Positions 12,640 through 19,435 of a stretch of DNA of 64,000 bases are shown one piece after another. Every line of letters starts with the position of its first letter. Position 1 is the first letter of the stretch. The position numbers were made by a program, and so were the translations under genes. This DNA comes from an uncultured Holophagaceae bacterium. GTDB taxonomy: Bacteria > Acidobacteriota > Holophagae > Holophagales > Holophagaceae. The notes under the pieces are model-generated. The model saw only the letters and a program-made list of their open reading frames with translations. It was not told the DNA's origin and did no database searches. The DNA lies in assembly GCA_903913215.1 (NCBI GenBank), contig CAIWKE010000011.1:62001-126000 (forward strand), written 5' to 3'.

Positions 12640-13563
12640 ATGACCCGCATCGCCTTCCTTGGCACCCCCCGTGCGGCTGTTCCGGCCCTCCGGGCTCTGG
12701 CTGAAGAAGGCGTCGAAGCGGTGTTCTGCAACCCGGACCGGCCCGCGGGCCGAGGGCGCCACCTGGAGGCCCCCCCCGTAAAGGTGGCAGCCCTGGAGCT
12801 GGGTCTGCCGCTCCACCAACCCCTGAGCTGGAAGACCCCCGAGGCCCGGGAGCTCTGGGAGGGCCTGCACATCGACCTGGCGGTGGTGGTGGCCTACGGC
12901 CACCTGCTGCCCCGGTGGCTGCTGGATGCCTGCCCCCTGGGGGTCTGGAACCTGCATTTCTCCCTGCTGCCCCGCTGGCGCGGTGCGGCCCCTGTGAACC
13001 ACGCCCTCCTGGCCGGGGACGAGGAGTCAGGGGTCAGCCTCATGCGCCTCACGCCAGGCTTGGACGAAGGGCCTGTGCTGGCCCAGAGCCACCGGCCCCT
13101 CGGCTCGGAGACCACGGCCGAAGGGCTCTTGGAGATCCTGGCCCAGGACGCCGCAGAGCTCCTCATGGACCAGTTGCCCCTGTTGCTCAGCGGCAGTGGC
13201 CAACCCCGGGAACAGGAGCACGGCCTGGCCACCCATGCTGCCAAGCTCCACAAGGACATGGCCCGCCTGGACTGGCGCCGCTCCGCCGCGGAGCTGCACC
13301 GGCAGGTGCGGGCCCTCTGGCCCTGGCCCGGCTCCGAGCTGCACTTGGAGGGTCAGACCCTCAAGGTCTGCGGGGTGGGCTCGCTTCGCACCTGCTACCG
13401 CGAGCCTGGTCAGTTGATCTGGGGCAAAGAGGAAGGCGCCTGGCTCGTCACCGCCGAAGGCTCCCTGGAACTCACCCTGCTCCAGCGTCCCGGCAAGCCC
13501 GTCCAGCCCGCCCTGCAGGCCCTGCAGCCCTGGGGCGTCAGCGGCAGCCGCGCAGTGGAATGA
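12640..13563 (+). CDS. fmt: methionyl-tRNA formyltransferase
   Basis: This encodes 307 residues. It transfers a formyl group from 10-formyl-THF to Met-tRNA. The catalytic triad fits N104, H106 and D142 within NLHFSLLPRWRGAAPVN and LTPGLDEGPVL. An N-terminal Rossmann part (IAFLGTPRAAVPAL) and a smaller C-terminal beta barrel (about 210-305) complete the usual layout. It ends 12 nt from the convergent radical SAM gene. Confidence 0.96.
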   Translation: MTRIAFLGTPRAAVPALRALAEEGVEAVFCNPDRPAGRGRHLEAPPVKVAALELGLPLHQPLSWKTPEARELWEGLHIDLAVVVAYGHLLPRWLLDACPLGVWNLHFSLLPRWRGAAPVNHALLAGDEESGVSLMRLTPGLDEGPVLAQSHRPLGSETTAEGLLEILAQDAAELLMDQLPLLLSGSGQPREQEHGLATHAAKLHKDMARLDWRRSAAELHRQVRALWPWPGSELHLEGQTLKVCGVGSLRTCYREPGQLIWGKEEGAWLVTAEGSLELTLLQRPGKPVQPALQALQPWGVSGSRAVE

Positions 13564-13575
13564 CTCGGCGGGGAT

Positions 13576-15000
13576 TCAGCCTTTCTGGAAGGACTTGATC
13601 TCGGCCCGGATGGGGGCCAGGCGGCTCTGCTCCAGACCATCGCGGTAGAAGAGGTTGTAGGTGTCGAAGGGGATGATGCGGCCATCGGGGTGGGCGATGT
13701 GGACGCAGCTCTTGCGCACGCTGCGCAGGTCGAAGCTCTCGGCGTCGATGAACTGCATGAAGATCAGGCGGAACACGTCGCGGTAGCCGATGTCGCCGGG
13801 CACGGCCACCTTGGGCAGGCAGCAGAGCAGCTCCGAGAGGCTGGTCGCGGCTCCCTCGGGGCCGTGGTTGGTGGCCAGCATCTGGAAGAGCCGGGCCTGA
13901 AGCTCTGGATCTTTCTCGAACTGGATGGTGTTGCGGCCGCCCTCGATGAGCCACTGGGGCTCCACGAAGCGGGTGAGGGGCTGCAGGCGACCCTCCACCT
14001 TGAGGGCGTAGGCCATGGCCAGGCTGTCCGGGTGGCAGGGCACCGGAAGGATGTCCTCGGGGGCGAAGAGGCTCGTCTGCTCCAGCACCTTGCGGCGCAG
14101 CTCTGTGAGGGTGAGGCGGTCCCGGCCGGGGTCGTAGCCCTCGGTGCGGCCCGCGTGCTGGATGGGCTGGAAGGTCACGCCCCGCACGCAGCGCTGCTGG
14201 GCGGCGAACTCCACGAGGCGGCCCAGCTCGCCGTCATTGCAGCCCTTTTTCACCGTGACCACCAGGGAAGTGCTGAGGTCCAGCTCGTTGAGGGTCTCCA
14301 GGGCCTTGAGCCGCGTGGCTCTCAGGTCGGCGCCCCGCAGCTCCAGGAGGGGCGCGGCCTCCAGGGAGTCGAACTGAAGGTACAGCTCGAAGGCGGGCTG
14401 GTAGCTGGCGAGCCGTTCGGCAAAGGCGCGGTCCTGGGCGATGCGCAGGCCGTTGGTGTTGACCATGAGGTGGCGGATGGGGCGGCGGCGGCAGGCGTCC
14501 AGGATCTCGAAGAACTGGGGGTGCAAGGTGGGCTCACCGCCGCTGAGCTGCACCACGTCCGGTTCGCCCTCGTTGGCCACGATGGCGTCAAGCATGCGCT
14601 CCAGGGTGGCCAAGTCCCGCATGCCGCCGCGCTCGGGGCCGCTCTCGGCATAGCAGACGGGGCAGCGCAGGTTGCAGTGGTCCGTGACCTCCAGCAGAGT
14701 CAGGCAGCTGTGCTGCTCATGGTCCGGGCAGAGGCCGCAGTCGTAGGGGCAGCCGTGCTCCACAGCGGTGTTGTTCCGGCAGGGCTGCTCGGGCACCTTG
14801 AGGAAGACCTCCCGGCAGCGGCGGTAGTAGTCCACATCGTCGGCGATGAGCACCCGCTCGGGGCCGTGGCGCGGGCAGCGCTTCAGCAGGTAGACGCAGC
14901 CCTCCTGGAACACGATCTTGGCGTCCACCCGGCGGTAGCAAGTGGAGCAGATGGACACGGCCGTGTCGTAGAAGAGGTACGGGCGGGTGGGGGTGGGCAT
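13576..15000 (-). CDS. MJ0619/Tes-like radical SAM protein
   Basis: This encodes 474 residues. The radical SAM motif is CNLRCPVC (C109-x3-C113-x2-C116), followed by a GGEPT motif. Before it come an N-terminal CxxC zinc-finger-like unit (C18/C21, C35, C42: ICSTCYRRVDAK, RCPRHG) and a second Cys cluster, GCPYDCGLCPDHEQHSC (C84, C88, C91, C99). This Cys layout is that of archaeal MJ0619-type enzymes, which include tetraether synthase (Tes), known to join lipid tails by radical C-C coupling. A C-terminal CVHIAHPDGRIIPFDTYN also fits. Its own substrate is not known. It ends a minus-strand operon with Lgt-like and small membrane proteins, which suits a lipid role (inference). Confidence 0.85.
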   Translation of the reverse strand: MPTPTRPYLFYDTAVSICSTCYRRVDAKIVFQEGCVYLLKRCPRHGPERVLIADDVDYYRRCREVFLKVPEQPCRNNTAVEHGCPYDCGLCPDHEQHSCLTLLEVTDHCNLRCPVCYAESGPERGGMRDLATLERMLDAIVANEGEPDVVQLSGGEPTLHPQFFEILDACRRRPIRHLMVNTNGLRIAQDRAFAERLASYQPAFELYLQFDSLEAAPLLELRGADLRATRLKALETLNELDLSTSLVVTVKKGCNDGELGRLVEFAAQQRCVRGVTFQPIQHAGRTEGYDPGRDRLTLTELRRKVLEQTSLFAPEDILPVPCHPDSLAMAYALKVEGRLQPLTRFVEPQWLIEGGRNTIQFEKDPELQARLFQMLATNHGPEGAATSLSELLCCLPKVAVPGDIGYRDVFRLIFMQFIDAESFDLRSVRKSCVHIAHPDGRIIPFDTYNLFYRDGLEQSRLAPIRAEIKSFQKG

Positions 15001-15031
15001 GGCTACCTCGCCTGGCGAGCGGGATCGGTGC

Positions 15032-15382
15032 TCAACGGATCACCAAGGGTTGATTCGCAAAATAGCCAAAACAGAGCAATGGGGGGGTGAGCAGCAGCAG
15101 TCCTGTGAAGAGCAGAGCACCGATGATGAGCCCGGACCGGTAAGGGGAGTCTTCCAGTCCCAGCACCCTGGAACGCAGGACGATCACCCAGGCCCAATGG
15201 GCCACGGGGATGGCCAGCAGGACGTAGATGCTCATGCCACCGAAATTGGCCTTGAACAGGAGCAGAGCCGGGAGGCCGGCGAGCACCGCGCAGAGGAGCC
15301 CCGTGCCGATCCCAGTGAGGCAGCCTCGACCCTGGGAGCGGGGGGCTAGGGGGGAACCGGCATCCGGGGGCAGCTCACTCAT
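15032..15382 (-). CDS. small membrane protein, paralogue 1
   Basis: This encodes 116 residues. A Pro-rich cytoplasmic N-terminus is followed by three predicted membrane segments (CLTGIGTGLLCAVLAGLPAL, IYVLLAIPVAHWAWVIVL, GLIIGALLFTGLLLLTPPLL). It aligns along its whole length with the next gene upstream (shared features: GCxxGxGxGLxCA, LLAIPxxHWxW, YRSGLIxG, LLLxxPLLCFG), so the two arose by tandem duplication. I recognise no family. It lies between the paralogue and the radical SAM gene. Confidence 0.65.
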   Translation of the reverse strand: MSELPPDAGSPLAPRSQGRGCLTGIGTGLLCAVLAGLPALLLFKANFGGMSIYVLLAIPVAHWAWVIVLRSRVLGLEDSPYRSGLIIGALLFTGLLLLTPPLLCFGYFANQPLVIR

Positions 15383-15450
15383 TCGGAACCTCCTGGCAGG
15401 GCTTAGGGGACTTTCTCAGGCGAGGCGGGCAAAGGCAATCAGAGCCCCCC

Positions 15451-15798
15451 TCAGCGGGGGCCCCAGGCTGCCAGTCCGAAACAGAGCAGCAGGGGTGAGA
15501 GCAGCAGCAGGCCGGAGATGAGGACCGAGCCGAGGATCAGCCCTGAGCGGTAGGAGCTGCCCTCGGGCAGTGGGGTCTTGAGGAAGCGGTAGATTGTCCA
15601 GCCCCAGTGGCAGCAGGGGATGGCGAGGAGCAGCAGGTAGCCCAGGCTGTTGCGGGCGTGGTTGAACAGGAGTACGGCCAGGAAGCCGCCACCCAGGGCG
15701 CAGGCCAGGCCCATGCCCATGCCCGCGAAGCAGCCCTGGAGCTGGGTGCGGGGAGAGGGGGCGGAATCCCCTTCCGGGGGCGGAGGCAAGTCAGGCAT
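15451..15798 (-). CDS. small membrane protein, paralogue 2
   Basis: This encodes 115 residues and is the tandem paralogue of the protein at 15032-15382. It has the same Pro-rich start and three membrane segments (CFAGMGMGLACALGGGFLAV, LGYLLLLAIPCCHWGWTIY, GLILGSVLISGLLLLSPLLL). Its start overlaps the end of the Lgt-like gene by 8 nt, which suggests coupled translation. The function is unknown. Confidence 0.65.
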   Translation of the reverse strand: MPDLPPPPEGDSAPSPRTQLQGCFAGMGMGLACALGGGFLAVLLFNHARNSLGYLLLLAIPCCHWGWTIYRFLKTPLPEGSSYRSGLILGSVLISGLLLLSPLLLCFGLAAWGPR

Positions 15799-16534
15799 GG
15801 GGTGTCTCCTGGCGGTGTTCTCTGGTACGTTCCCAGACGAGGAGGATCAACGCGAGCATGGCCGCCCATTGGATGGGATTCAAACCCAGCATGCGGGGAT
15901 AGGGTTTGACGGCGTCGATGAGCAGCCGCCAGAAGGAATAGGCGCCCAGGAAAAGGCGCCAGAGGTCACCCTCCCGGGCCAGGCGGCGCCGCAGCCAGAG
16001 CGCAGCCAGAAGGAAGACCGACAGGACCAGAGCCTCATAGAGCTGAGCTGGGTGGCGGGGGATGCCATCGCCGAAGTCCACGCCCCAGGGCAGGGTGGTG
16101 GGCCCGCCGTGGGTGCCGTCCGCCAGGCCCGTGAGGAAGCAGCCGATGCGCCCCAGGAGCATGCCCACCAGGAGGGGGATCACGAAGAGGTCCCCGGTGC
16201 GCCGGGGTTCGTGGATCTGGGCCTTGGCCACCTCCACGCCGAGGTGGCCGCCCAGCAGGGCCCCCAGCACGCTCTTGCCCCCCAGCACCGCGCCCCAACC
16301 CACGGCGGACAGGACCGGCAGGAGGGTGGCGACGTGCAGGAGCTTGGCGCCGAGGCCTGCACCAAGGATGGCGCCTGCCACCACTGGGAGCCGGATGGAG
16401 CCCTGGAGGGGATCGCCCCAGTGTCGGCGCAGGAACCAGAAGAGATGGGCCCCCACCAGGTAGGCCAGGGTTTCGAAAAAGACGTGGGGATGCACCTGCC
16501 AGGGGCCCAGGGGCACGAAATACGGGAAGGTCAT
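15791..16534 (-). CDS. divergent Lgt-like membrane protein
   Basis: This encodes 247 residues with about seven membrane segments. It belongs to the prolipoprotein diacylglyceryl transferase superfamily by GRIGCF (128-133) and HPAQLYEA (161-168). In true Lgt the signature is GRxGNFxNxE. Here the Asn is Cys132 and the Glu position is Leu137, followed by ADGTHGGPTTLPWG. These are residues known to matter for Lgt activity, so it may transfer something else or be inactive on prolipoproteins. It lies 24 nt downstream of the TPR gene and overlaps the next small membrane gene. Confidence 0.8.
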   Translation of the reverse strand: MTFPYFVPLGPWQVHPHVFFETLAYLVGAHLFWFLRRHWGDPLQGSIRLPVVAGAILGAGLGAKLLHVATLLPVLSAVGWGAVLGGKSVLGALLGGHLGVEVAKAQIHEPRRTGDLFVIPLLVGMLLGRIGCFLTGLADGTHGGPTTLPWGVDFGDGIPRHPAQLYEALVLSVFLLAALWLRRRLAREGDLWRLFLGAYSFWRLLIDAVKPYPRMLGLNPIQWAAMLALILLVWERTREHRQETPHA

Positions 16535-16558
16535 GGGACTATCTCTGGGCCTTGGCGG

Positions 16559-19435
16559 CTAGGCCAATCGAGCGGCCACATCCCGGTAGTCGGGATCCAT
16601 CTCCTGGACGGCCTTGAACTCTTCCGTGGCCATGCCCAGGTGGCCCTGCTGGAGGTAGATCTCGGCGAGGTCGTAGCGGAGGCCGATGCTGTCCTCGGGG
16701 GGGAAGCCCGGAGCCAGAACGCCCTTGCGGAGCCACTCCACGGCGGAATCCAGGTCGCCCCGGGCCTGCTCGCAGATGCTCAGCATGGAGCAGCACTCCA
16801 GCGTGCGCTCGGGGTCTCCCATGGCCACCTTGAACTCCTCGATGGCGGGCTCGATGAGCATCATCTCCTTGTAGGCGATGCCCAGGTTGTAGTGGGTGTC
16901 GTAGTCGTCGCCCTTGACCTGCTTTTCCACGCCCTCGCGGAAGGCGCTGAAGAGTTCATCGACGCTCTGGATCTTCTCCACCACGTGGGTGGCGTCGTGC
17001 ATTTCCTCGCCTTCACCCGAGTCCATGAGGGCCGTGCCCAGCACATCCGTGAGGTCAAAGAAGGAGTTGGCGAAGTCGCTTTCATCCAGAGCGCCGGCTT
17101 TGGCCACGAGCCCCAGCTTCTGCAGGATGCCCTCGGCGCGGTCGAGGCGCTCCTGCAGCTCCGGGTGGTTCGGGAACTGGCGGAGAGCGGTCTCGATCTC
17201 GATCTTGGCTTCGTCGGGGCTGCCGTAGTCGAGCTGGAAGTCGATGTCGCTGAGCAGGCTCGAGAGCTCCTCGGGGATCGCGGCGGGCGCAGGTTCCGGC
17301 TGGGGCTCAGGCGCCGCGGGAAGAGGTGCAGGCGCTGGGGGCTGGACCGGCGGCAGGGCCGCAAAGTGGGCATCCAGGGCCGTGGGATCCAGGTGGGCGG
17401 TGGGCATGGGCGGAAGTTCCGCCGTGGGGGCCGAGGCCAGCTGCTCCGGTTCAGTACCGGGGACCAGATCTGTGAGGGTGACGTCCATCCAGCCGAGATC
17501 CGAGTCCTCGGCGGCATAGGGATCGCGAGGGGCTGGGAGGGGGGTCGGGGCGGGCGGCTGCGCCAAGGGCGCGAAGGGATCCACCGCGAAGGGATCCACC
17601 GCGAAGGGCTCCGTGGTGAAGGGCTCAAGGGGCGGCGGCACGTAGGCGGCGGCCGGAAGGGGGGGCGGGGCGAAGGGATCCGGGGGCAGGGTGTCGAGAT
17701 CCCCCAGCAGGGGGAGCCCATCCCCGAGGGCGATGGGCTCGGCGGGTTTGGGTGGCGCCCAGGCAGGCTCTGGGGCCTGATAGCCAGAGGTGTCCAGGCT
17801 GATGGGCAGTTCCTCTGTGGGCGTTTGAGTCGGTTGGGGCGCGAGCGGCACAGCTGCGGGTGTCAGGGGGGGCGTGACCCCAGGGTCCGGCAGGCCCATG
17901 GAGCGGCGGTGGATGCGGGTGGAGCCAGGGAAGAGCTGCTCGGCCAGGTCCAGCAGCTGGGTGGCCTCTCGCTTCCGGCCCAGTTGGGCGAGGACCTGGG
18001 CGCTTTGGGAGTACTGCATCTGCACCTGGGTCAGGCGGCCCGTACTGCGGTGCACGGCGACGATGGACTCGATGATGGCGAGGTCCGCGGGATCCAGCTC
18101 CAGGGCCTTCTTGTAGGACTCCACGGCCCGCTCGGGACTGCCGCTGCGGACGAAGGCCTCGGCCTCCCGCAAGAACTGCTCGATGCGCAGCCGCTTGACG
18201 GGATCCACCTCAGTCTCGCCGCCGCTGCGGGTGGACTCCTGGGGACTCGGTGACTCGAAGCCGCCCGAGGCGCTCACGGCCGCAAAGGCCTGTGGGGCTG
18301 TGGGGGCAGTGCCCGGCACCACGCCCAGGGCCTGGAGCTGGCCCGAGAGGTGGCCCAGCAGGGTCTGGTCGTTGTTCTGATAGGCCAGACCATAGGCGCT
18401 CTGGAGGGCATTGACCTGGTCGGCGCGGTTGCCGCTCTGGTGGGCGATTTCCGCCAGCAGCACCCAGGCCTCGGCACCGATGCTGCCCTGGAGGGCCGAG
18501 CGCAGGCTGCGGCTGACGATGTCCCCGGAGCCACGGCGGGACAATTCGCGGGCGATGGGGGCGAAGAGGCGCAGGCCCTCCTCGGCCCGATCCGCCTGGA
18601 CCAGGTTCCGCAGGGCCTTCTCGCAAAGGGGCAGCAACTTCTCGGGCAGCTGGGCCACGTCCGCCAGGGCCTCCAGGGCCCGGTCCGGGTGGCCGCTGCG
18701 CAGCTCGATTTCGGCCAGGGCTTCGAGCAGTTCAGTGTTACGGGGATTGCTCGTCAGGCCCTCGCGCAGGTGCTCCGCAGCCGTGGTGTAGTCGCCTTGG
18801 ATCACGCCCAGCCGGCTCTGGGTCAGGAAGACCTGGGGCGTGGAGATCATGGATTTGGCGCGCTCGAGGATCTGGTTCGCTTCGCCGTGCATCTGCTCCA
18901 TGGCCAGGGACTCGGCCACCTCGAGGTAGATGCCCGCCGCGCGGTCCTTCATGCCCTCCTTGTTGTAGAGGTCCGCCAGCTTGACCTTCATCTTCAGGTT
19001 CTTGGGGTCCAGATCCACGACCTTGTTGAACTCTTCCAGGGCCCGCTTGATGAGCCCCTTCTTCTGGAAGTGCTCCGCCACCTGCAGGTGCACCCGCACG
19101 GCGTCCGTGGTCTTGTTCATCTGGCGGTATAGGTCCGCCAGGCGCTGGGCTGCGTCGATGTCGTCCGGAGCGTTGCGCACGACCTTCTGGAAGATGGCCG
19201 CCGCGCGGGCGTGGAAGCCATCCCGCTCATAGGCGGAGCCCAGGCGCTTGTGGATGTCATTCGCCTCTTTGACCCGACCCACCTGCATGCAGAGGTCGCC
19301 GATCTGATTGAGGGTGTTGTAGTCCTTCGGATTGTCATCGACGATCTTCTGGAATTCGTCGATGGCCCTTTCGATCTTCCCCGCCGTCAAGAGCTTGTCG
19401 GCTTCCTTCTTGACTTTGACGCGATCAATGGCCAT
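16559..19435 (-). CDS. large TPR-repeat protein
   Basis: This encodes 958 residues. Residues 1-390 are tandem TPRs (for example AIDEFQKIVDDNPKDYNTLN, AIFQKVVRNAPDDIDAAQRL, ALEEFNKVVDLDPKNLKMKV). Another TPR block lies at about 430-520 (ERAVESYKKALELDPADLAI). A Pro/Ala-rich linker (about 540-740, with AVDPFAVDPFAPL) precedes a C-terminal TPR block (about 760-958) that ends LGMATEEFKAVQEMDPDYRD. There is no signal peptide or membrane segment. It is probably a cytoplasmic scaffold, and such proteins are common in Acidobacteria. It is transcribed with cytidine deaminase upstream and the Lgt-like gene downstream. Confidence 0.85.
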   Translation of the reverse strand: MAIDRVKVKKEADKLLTAGKIERAIDEFQKIVDDNPKDYNTLNQIGDLCMQVGRVKEANDIHKRLGSAYERDGFHARAAAIFQKVVRNAPDDIDAAQRLADLYRQMNKTTDAVRVHLQVAEHFQKKGLIKRALEEFNKVVDLDPKNLKMKVKLADLYNKEGMKDRAAGIYLEVAESLAMEQMHGEANQILERAKSMISTPQVFLTQSRLGVIQGDYTTAAEHLREGLTSNPRNTELLEALAEIELRSGHPDRALEALADVAQLPEKLLPLCEKALRNLVQADRAEEGLRLFAPIARELSRRGSGDIVSRSLRSALQGSIGAEAWVLLAEIAHQSGNRADQVNALQSAYGLAYQNNDQTLLGHLSGQLQALGVVPGTAPTAPQAFAAVSASGGFESPSPQESTRSGGETEVDPVKRLRIEQFLREAEAFVRSGSPERAVESYKKALELDPADLAIIESIVAVHRSTGRLTQVQMQYSQSAQVLAQLGRKREATQLLDLAEQLFPGSTRIHRRSMGLPDPGVTPPLTPAAVPLAPQPTQTPTEELPISLDTSGYQAPEPAWAPPKPAEPIALGDGLPLLGDLDTLPPDPFAPPPLPAAAYVPPPLEPFTTEPFAVDPFAVDPFAPLAQPPAPTPLPAPRDPYAAEDSDLGWMDVTLTDLVPGTEPEQLASAPTAELPPMPTAHLDPTALDAHFAALPPVQPPAPAPLPAAPEPQPEPAPAAIPEELSSLLSDIDFQLDYGSPDEAKIEIETALRQFPNHPELQERLDRAEGILQKLGLVAKAGALDESDFANSFFDLTDVLGTALMDSGEGEEMHDATHVVEKIQSVDELFSAFREGVEKQVKGDDYDTHYNLGIAYKEMMLIEPAIEEFKVAMGDPERTLECCSMLSICEQARGDLDSAVEWLRKGVLAPGFPPEDSIGLRYDLAEIYLQQGHLGMATEEFKAVQEMDPDYRDVAARLA

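Follow-up and report, generated by a model that had tools for sequence, protein, structure and literature searches.

The radical S-adenosylmethionine (rSAM) enzyme MJ0619, a tetraether synthase (Tes, also GDGT-MAS), binds phospholipids, and the available passages of its description place its coupling intermediate on a sulfur of an [Fe4S4] cluster and call its Tyr459 strictly conserved in archaeal enzymes (PMC9433317). Another rSAM enzyme, Mss, is named as the bacterial tail-coupling enzyme in the part at hand of a further study, from 2026 (PMC13274423), and bacterial 'Tes homologues' at E <1e-50 are discussed as possible makers of branched glycerol dialkyl glycerol tetraethers in the accessible text of a third (PMC8941075). 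Lgt is the phosphatidylglycerol:prolipoprotein diacylglyceryl transferase; the roles of its residues in the phosphatidylglycerol (PG) donor pocket are taken here from excerpts on the E. coli enzyme (PMC4728403). In the stretch analysed here (the window: 64,000 nucleotides of an uncultured Holophagaceae bacterium, phylum Acidobacteriota, contig CAIWKE010000011.1, positions 62,001 to 126,000), a gene for an MJ0619-like rSAM protein forms a minus-strand group with genes for an Lgt-like protein and two small hydrophobic proteins (twins 1 and 2; Table 1), and the four open reading frames (ORFs) lie where an earlier note on this DNA had placed them. The two-gene module of the Lgt-like and rSAM genes, which I call LR, is widespread, and I tentatively favour the reading that it acts on a membrane glycerolipid through a reaction different from tail-to-tail coupling, the window containing a horizontally acquired form. 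The observation in the earlier note is confirmed in part, and its interpretation is supported in part. The literature surveyed, as far as its text was accessible, contained no paper linking an Lgt homologue with a radical SAM gene as a pair.

Inheritance and loss of the Lgt-like gene go together with those of the rSAM gene, and the two genes usually overlap or almost touch. Searching named genomes with a 14-row alignment gave at least 589 matching stretches, at least 581 of them encoding a relative, and the best 80 were used as named loci. These carry 12 phylum labels: Bacillota (26), Pseudomonadota (20), Acidobacteriota (12), Planctomycetota and Cyanobacteriota (5 each), Myxococcota (4), Thermoplasmatota (3) and, once each, five further labels. 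An Lgt homologue was found near the rSAM gene in 72 of the best 80 (tblastn and profile), and in 67 it lies upstream on the same strand. It is downstream in L071, L124, L127 and L130 and on the opposite strand in L118; scores are weak (100-141 bits only) in L071, L118, L124 and L130. Three of the eight loci lacking it (L078, L099, L125) have less than 500 bp of upstream sequence. When the 67 named loci are joined with 13 acidobacterial ones and the window, 55 of the 81 upstream pairs lie within 20 bp of each other or overlap.

Co-occurrence, which the earlier note had proposed as a check on its grouping, is strongly positive for this pair. Across 297 genomes of Acidobacteriota, a strong rSAM match (>460 bits) was found in 17 and a strong Lgt-like match (>180 bits) in 18, with both in 16. 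In G193 a divergent rSAM gene (325 bits) lies at a distance of 1.1 kb from the Lgt-like one, the Lgt-like gene of G015 sits at a contig end, and in G233 the rSAM gene is broken and an Lgt-like match is absent. Fisher's test gives p 1.7e-25 with G193 scored as both and kinship ignored. The rSAM gene is present in 16 of 104 Paenibacillaceae genomes, all 16 of which also hold the Lgt-like gene (divided over two stretches in G307, G326 and G381), and the latter is found in none of 20 tested rSAM-negative genomes of that family (p 1.4e-10 on 36 of the 104 genomes, the other 68 rSAM-negative ones being left out and kinship again ignored). Furthermore, the two proteins diverge in step: the distance-matrix correlation is r 0.825 for 81 loci, against at most 0.157 in 2000 permutations, and is 0.698 for the 55 loci that remain when Bacillota are removed.

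The window rSAM protein matches Radical_SAM and the HMPTM zinc ribbon in Pfam. Its best NCBIfam models are TrsS (NF045646, a radical SAM (seleno)protein; 311 bits, cut-off 490) and Tes (NF045702; 254 bits, cut-off 450), so that it falls below the curated cut-off of both; each of these models matches all 65 rows of the LR alignment at E <=1e-30. The best PDB sequence match is MJ0619/GDGT-MAS (7tol, E 5e-63, an E-value for the PDB set), and the predicted fold aligns with 7tom over 422 residues at Z 42.9 and 31% identity, with pLDDT <50 at residues 352-396, which include Cys393 and Cys394. LR and MJ0619 thus share the whole fold, but the LR rSAM clade is separate from Tes and lies on the side of the TrsS-like enzymes. 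All 30 LR rows of a 58-row tree fall into a single clade (SH-aLRT 100), to which L020 (from G193) and the TrsS-like rows are nearer than MJ0619 or the bacterial Tes-like rows. In a 39-row tree, for which 15 of the 30 LR rows were kept and four other long or odd rows dropped, a grouping of LR with Tes is rejected (approximately unbiased (AU) test, p 8e-34). The phylogeny that the earlier note had proposed therefore does not place the window enzyme with Tes.

The earlier note had also claimed an MJ0619-type cysteine layout, which holds for the rubredoxin-like site, the N-terminal cluster ([Fe4S4]N) and the radical SAM (RS) cluster and fails for the C-terminal cluster ([Fe4S4]C). Metal sites were counted in 65 LR rows, with residue numbers of the LR rSAM protein that are distinct from the E. 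coli Lgt numbering used further below. Each cysteine position of the rubredoxin-like CX2C-X20-CX2H site, of [Fe4S4]N and of the RS CX3CX2C motif is kept in 65/65, and His45 of the rubredoxin-like site in 62, the other three having Cys. Judged by conservation, positions 326, 431 and 446 would be the [Fe4S4]C ligands; the passages at hand on MJ0619 name only Met439. Position 431 is Ser in 48 rows, Thr in 16 and Ala in one, position 446 is Asp in 55 and Glu in 10, neither is ever Cys, and position 326 is Cys in just 25. The equivalent of MJ0619 Tyr459 (Ile435) is Ile in 59 rows and Tyr in none. Elsewhere in the class the [Fe4S4]C cysteines are kept, namely in 8/8 Tes-like bacterial rows, 7/7 rows of a group of about 700 aa and 9/10 TrsS-like rows. 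The LR enzymes have new conserved cysteines at 322 (64/65), 393 and 394 (62/65 each) and 432 (65/65), and a re-ligated C-terminal cluster is possible. Cys99 and Cys432 are common to LR and TrsS-like rows; unlike LR, the latter retain cysteines at 326, 431 and 446 and have other gene neighbours.

Since the [Fe4S4]C cysteines are replaced and the MJ0619 intermediate is bonded to an [Fe4S4] sulfur, the known coupling route is unavailable to LR in its known form. The earlier note had suggested that the rSAM enzyme joins lipid tails like Tes or Mss, yielding the iso-diabolic or other membrane-spanning lipids of Acidobacteria, and this now appears very improbable. It would fit the GDGT-MAS fold, the strength of the 7tol match and a partner of lipid type, and the module would be borne by a maker of iso-diabolic acid if G123, G165 and G096 are Chloracidobacterium. 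That genus makes both iso-diabolic acid and the betaine lipid DGTA, according to the accessible part of one report (PMC12816986). However, the coupling proposal has to contend with the loss of cysteines 431 and 446 in every LR row, the infrequent Cys at 326, a Tyr459 position that is never Tyr, the retention of these cysteines by other members of the class and the rejected grouping with Tes. The module is also absent from 20/20 congeners of the host, and its carriers include cyanobacteria, Paenibacillus and Burkholderiales, groups that are not known to make iso-diabolic lipids. Finally, the link to iso-diabolic lipids fails on distribution, because the acid was found in subdivisions 1, 3, 4 and 6 of the seven surveyed, as far as the accessible text tells (PMC13274423), as against strong LR rSAM matches in only 17 of 297 acidobacterial genomes. 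As to DGTA, the DGTS family PF11899 is restricted to 5 of 34 module genomes, which belong to a single family, and this lipid is therefore no general function of the module.

Since the match of the window enzyme to MJ0619 has an E-value of 5e-63 and an identity of 31%, LR enzymes could be miscounted as tetraether synthases, despite lacking cysteines of the cluster where coupling happens. Such miscounts bear on climate proxies, and genome surveys could mistake an LR pathway for the synthesis of membrane-spanning lipids. Positions 431 and 446 would tell the two kinds of enzyme apart. The group of about 700 aa (L143-L149) is common in the phylum and does not carry the [Fe4S4]N cysteines at the corresponding alignment positions; it may, at a guess, be the acidobacterial Mss, and it lies far from LR in the 58-row tree. 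TrsS-like genes of acidobacterial family f28 (L023, L028, L029 and others) are broken by in-frame TGA, as expected for selenoproteins.

The Lgt-like partner matches PF01790 at 81 bits (cut-off 24.9) and the E. coli Lgt structure 5azb by profile at E 9e-16. It is additional to a canonical Lgt (166 bits) encoded on another contig of the same genome, and a PF01790 match is found in 288 of the 297 acidobacterial genomes. When 24 LR rows are aligned to E. coli Lgt, the equivalents of R143, R239 and Y235 are kept in 24/24 and that of E202 in 22/24. Unlike in Lgt, the H103 position is Val in 22, Leu in one, Ile in one and His in none, while N146 has become Cys and R246 Lys in all 24. In the window protein Y26 corresponds to His17 and Y30 to Glu21 (HMM alignment only), and the changes at key Lgt residues that the earlier note had pointed out are seen as C132 at N146 and L137 near E151. 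The consulted part of the E. coli study found no tested change of H103 or R143 to be active (PMC4728403). From this pattern I infer a lipid site that is kept and an acceptor side that is altered.

Modification of a membrane glycerolipid is the best reading of LR because both partners come from phospholipid-handling families, and in this respect the earlier note's suggestion of a lipid-modifying role stands as a plausible hypothesis. The R143/R239/E202/Y235 pocket, being retained, would let the Lgt-like enzyme bind a PG-type lipid, whose diacylglyceryl part it would transfer or present to an acceptor; changes at the H103, Y26, N146 and E151 positions are the reason for proposing that this acceptor is not a lipoprotein cysteine. 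The rSAM enzyme might abstract a hydrogen from an unactivated carbon, either in this lipid or in the head group that it has newly gained, with its C-terminal cluster re-ligated or absent, and the small membrane proteins may hold the two enzymes together at the membrane. As a conserved pair that occurs under twelve phylum labels without an assigned function, LR offers a practicable way towards a new lipid or lipid-linked compound. More specific, and doubtful, is the proposal of an undescribed glycerolipid common to bacteria of many phyla and to archaea of the Poseidoniales type, for which Lgt-derived diacylglyceryl transfer from PG, or from its counterpart in archaea, to an acceptor that is not a cysteine would be combined with a new reaction on an unactivated carbon, carried out by a Tes-fold rSAM enzyme with a cluster re-ligated by Cys322, Cys393, Cys394 and Cys432.

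Several points weigh against glycerolipid modification. Having lost H103, the Lgt-like protein could be no transferase at all. No Lgt homologue was found in L073, L085 and L114 although upstream sequence is present, nor beside the LR-clade rSAM genes of L122 and L128, from Shewanella canadensis and an Ectothiorhodospiraceae metagenome-assembled genome. In these two loci the rSAM gene (L122:7478-9198, L128:7470-9139) is accompanied by DUF547 and a DVU_1556-type methyltransferase instead of Lgt. A methyltransferase of this type also lies beside a TrsS-like rSAM gene (L051), and since partners are shared in this way, the substrate of the LR rSAM enzyme may not be a lipid. The enzyme could, for instance, make or alter a small metabolite or metalloid compound, as has been proposed for TrsS and ArsS, and the Lgt-like enzyme would attach this compound to a diacylglyceryl anchor. 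I consider this unlikely: TrsS is indeed the closest NCBIfam model and DVU_1556/ArsM-type methyltransferases adjoin rSAM genes of both kinds, but no such methyltransferase is among the recurrent neighbours of the loci, and TrsS is itself without known function.

The small membrane proteins suggest another possibility, namely that they are the substrates, with the Lgt-like enzyme lipidating a conserved cysteine in the third helix and the rSAM enzyme modifying the protein. Of 93 loci outside the window, 39 encode members of a family of three-helix small proteins downstream of the rSAM gene, 42 of the 43 proteins in this family contain Cys, several copies occur per locus in L034, L083 and L112, and the window twins also carry a Cys near the C-terminus. 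Nevertheless, small proteins are not universal, membership of the twins in the three-helix family could not be shown, and H103, which E. coli Lgt requires for activity, is lost, so that this explanation is improbable. Radical SAM enzymes often mature peptides, and a pathway for ribosomally synthesized and post-translationally modified peptides with a lipid-anchored product could be imagined on that ground, but it has hardly any likelihood: no conserved ORF of 18-75 aa runs through the 80 named loci (searched at the loci only), where the largest clusters of such ORFs cover five and three loci, mostly of close relatives.

The twins resemble each other by alignment, in agreement with the paralogy claimed in the earlier note, and match no family model in Pfam or NCBIfam. 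The predicted structure of the small protein has four helical segments (pLDDT 89). Small multi-transmembrane ORFs, scored by hydropathy only, occur on the module strand in 57 of 80 loci and on the opposite one in 10 of 80. Membership of the twins in the three-helix family that follows the rSAM gene was rejected, four rounds of HMM search giving no window match at E 10. A comparison by hhalign gives a probability of 9.6% (0.1-2.2% for ten shuffles and control pieces), and in a Smith-Waterman comparison of the twins with eight related small proteins, 8 and 17 of 500 shuffles scored as high. A likeness of the twins to the small membrane proteins of other loci is thus weak, without significance in the HMM and hhalign comparisons, and at most suggestive.

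In the window, the ORFs of the Lgt-like protein and twin 1 overlap by 8 bp, and the remaining intergenic gaps are 68 and 31 bp. None of the four module genes was found in the 11 congener loci holding fmt (L169-L179). A tetratricopeptide repeat (TPR) gene lies 46-535 bp beyond fmt in 8 of these 11; L169 and L170 have no TPR match, and L178 is short. A genome search gave a strong rSAM or Lgt-like match in 0/20 congeners. Because the site between fmt and the TPR gene (window 13564-16558) is empty in congeners, the block looks like a 3-kb insertion in the host lineage, and the four genes look horizontally acquired.

Table 1. Features of the locus, numbered along the 64,000-nucleotide window.
Feature	Position	Strand	Evidence
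Methionyl-tRNA formyltransferase (fmt), left flank, outside module	12640-13563	+	TIGR00460 above cut-off
rSAM protein, 474 aa, MJ0619/Tes fold, LR clade	13576-15000	-	Pfam, NCBIfam, PDB match, fold, trees, metal-site counts
Small hydrophobic protein (twin 2), 116 aa, Cys near C-terminus	15032-15382	-	ORF
Small hydrophobic protein (twin 1), 115 aa, Pro-rich N-terminus, paralogue of twin 2	15451-15798	-	ORF, twin alignment
Lgt-like integral membrane protein, 247 aa, second Lgt homologue of genome	15791-16534	-	PF01790, 5azb profile match, residue table
TPR protein, right flank, outside module	16559-19435	-	Pfam TPR

A role as a defence system was rejected, PADLOC giving only partial viperin matches through the radical SAM core. 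A more distant version of the module is seen in G219 (L160:4046-6942), where a divergent rSAM gene (34% identity over the matched part), a gene for a 160-aa protein and an Lgt-like gene stand in a row. The pair is also present on three archaeal contigs of Thermoplasmatota (Poseidoniales-type; L101, L106, L115), and MG-II archaea are reported to have almost no Tes in the available passages of one study (PMC8941075). Finally, in L104 (2972-4945; matches to PF07690 and PF01553), L109, L120, L121 and L132 the pair has, upstream on its own strand, a gene for a protein combining major facilitator superfamily (MFS) and acyltransferase parts, which again hints at phospholipid handling.

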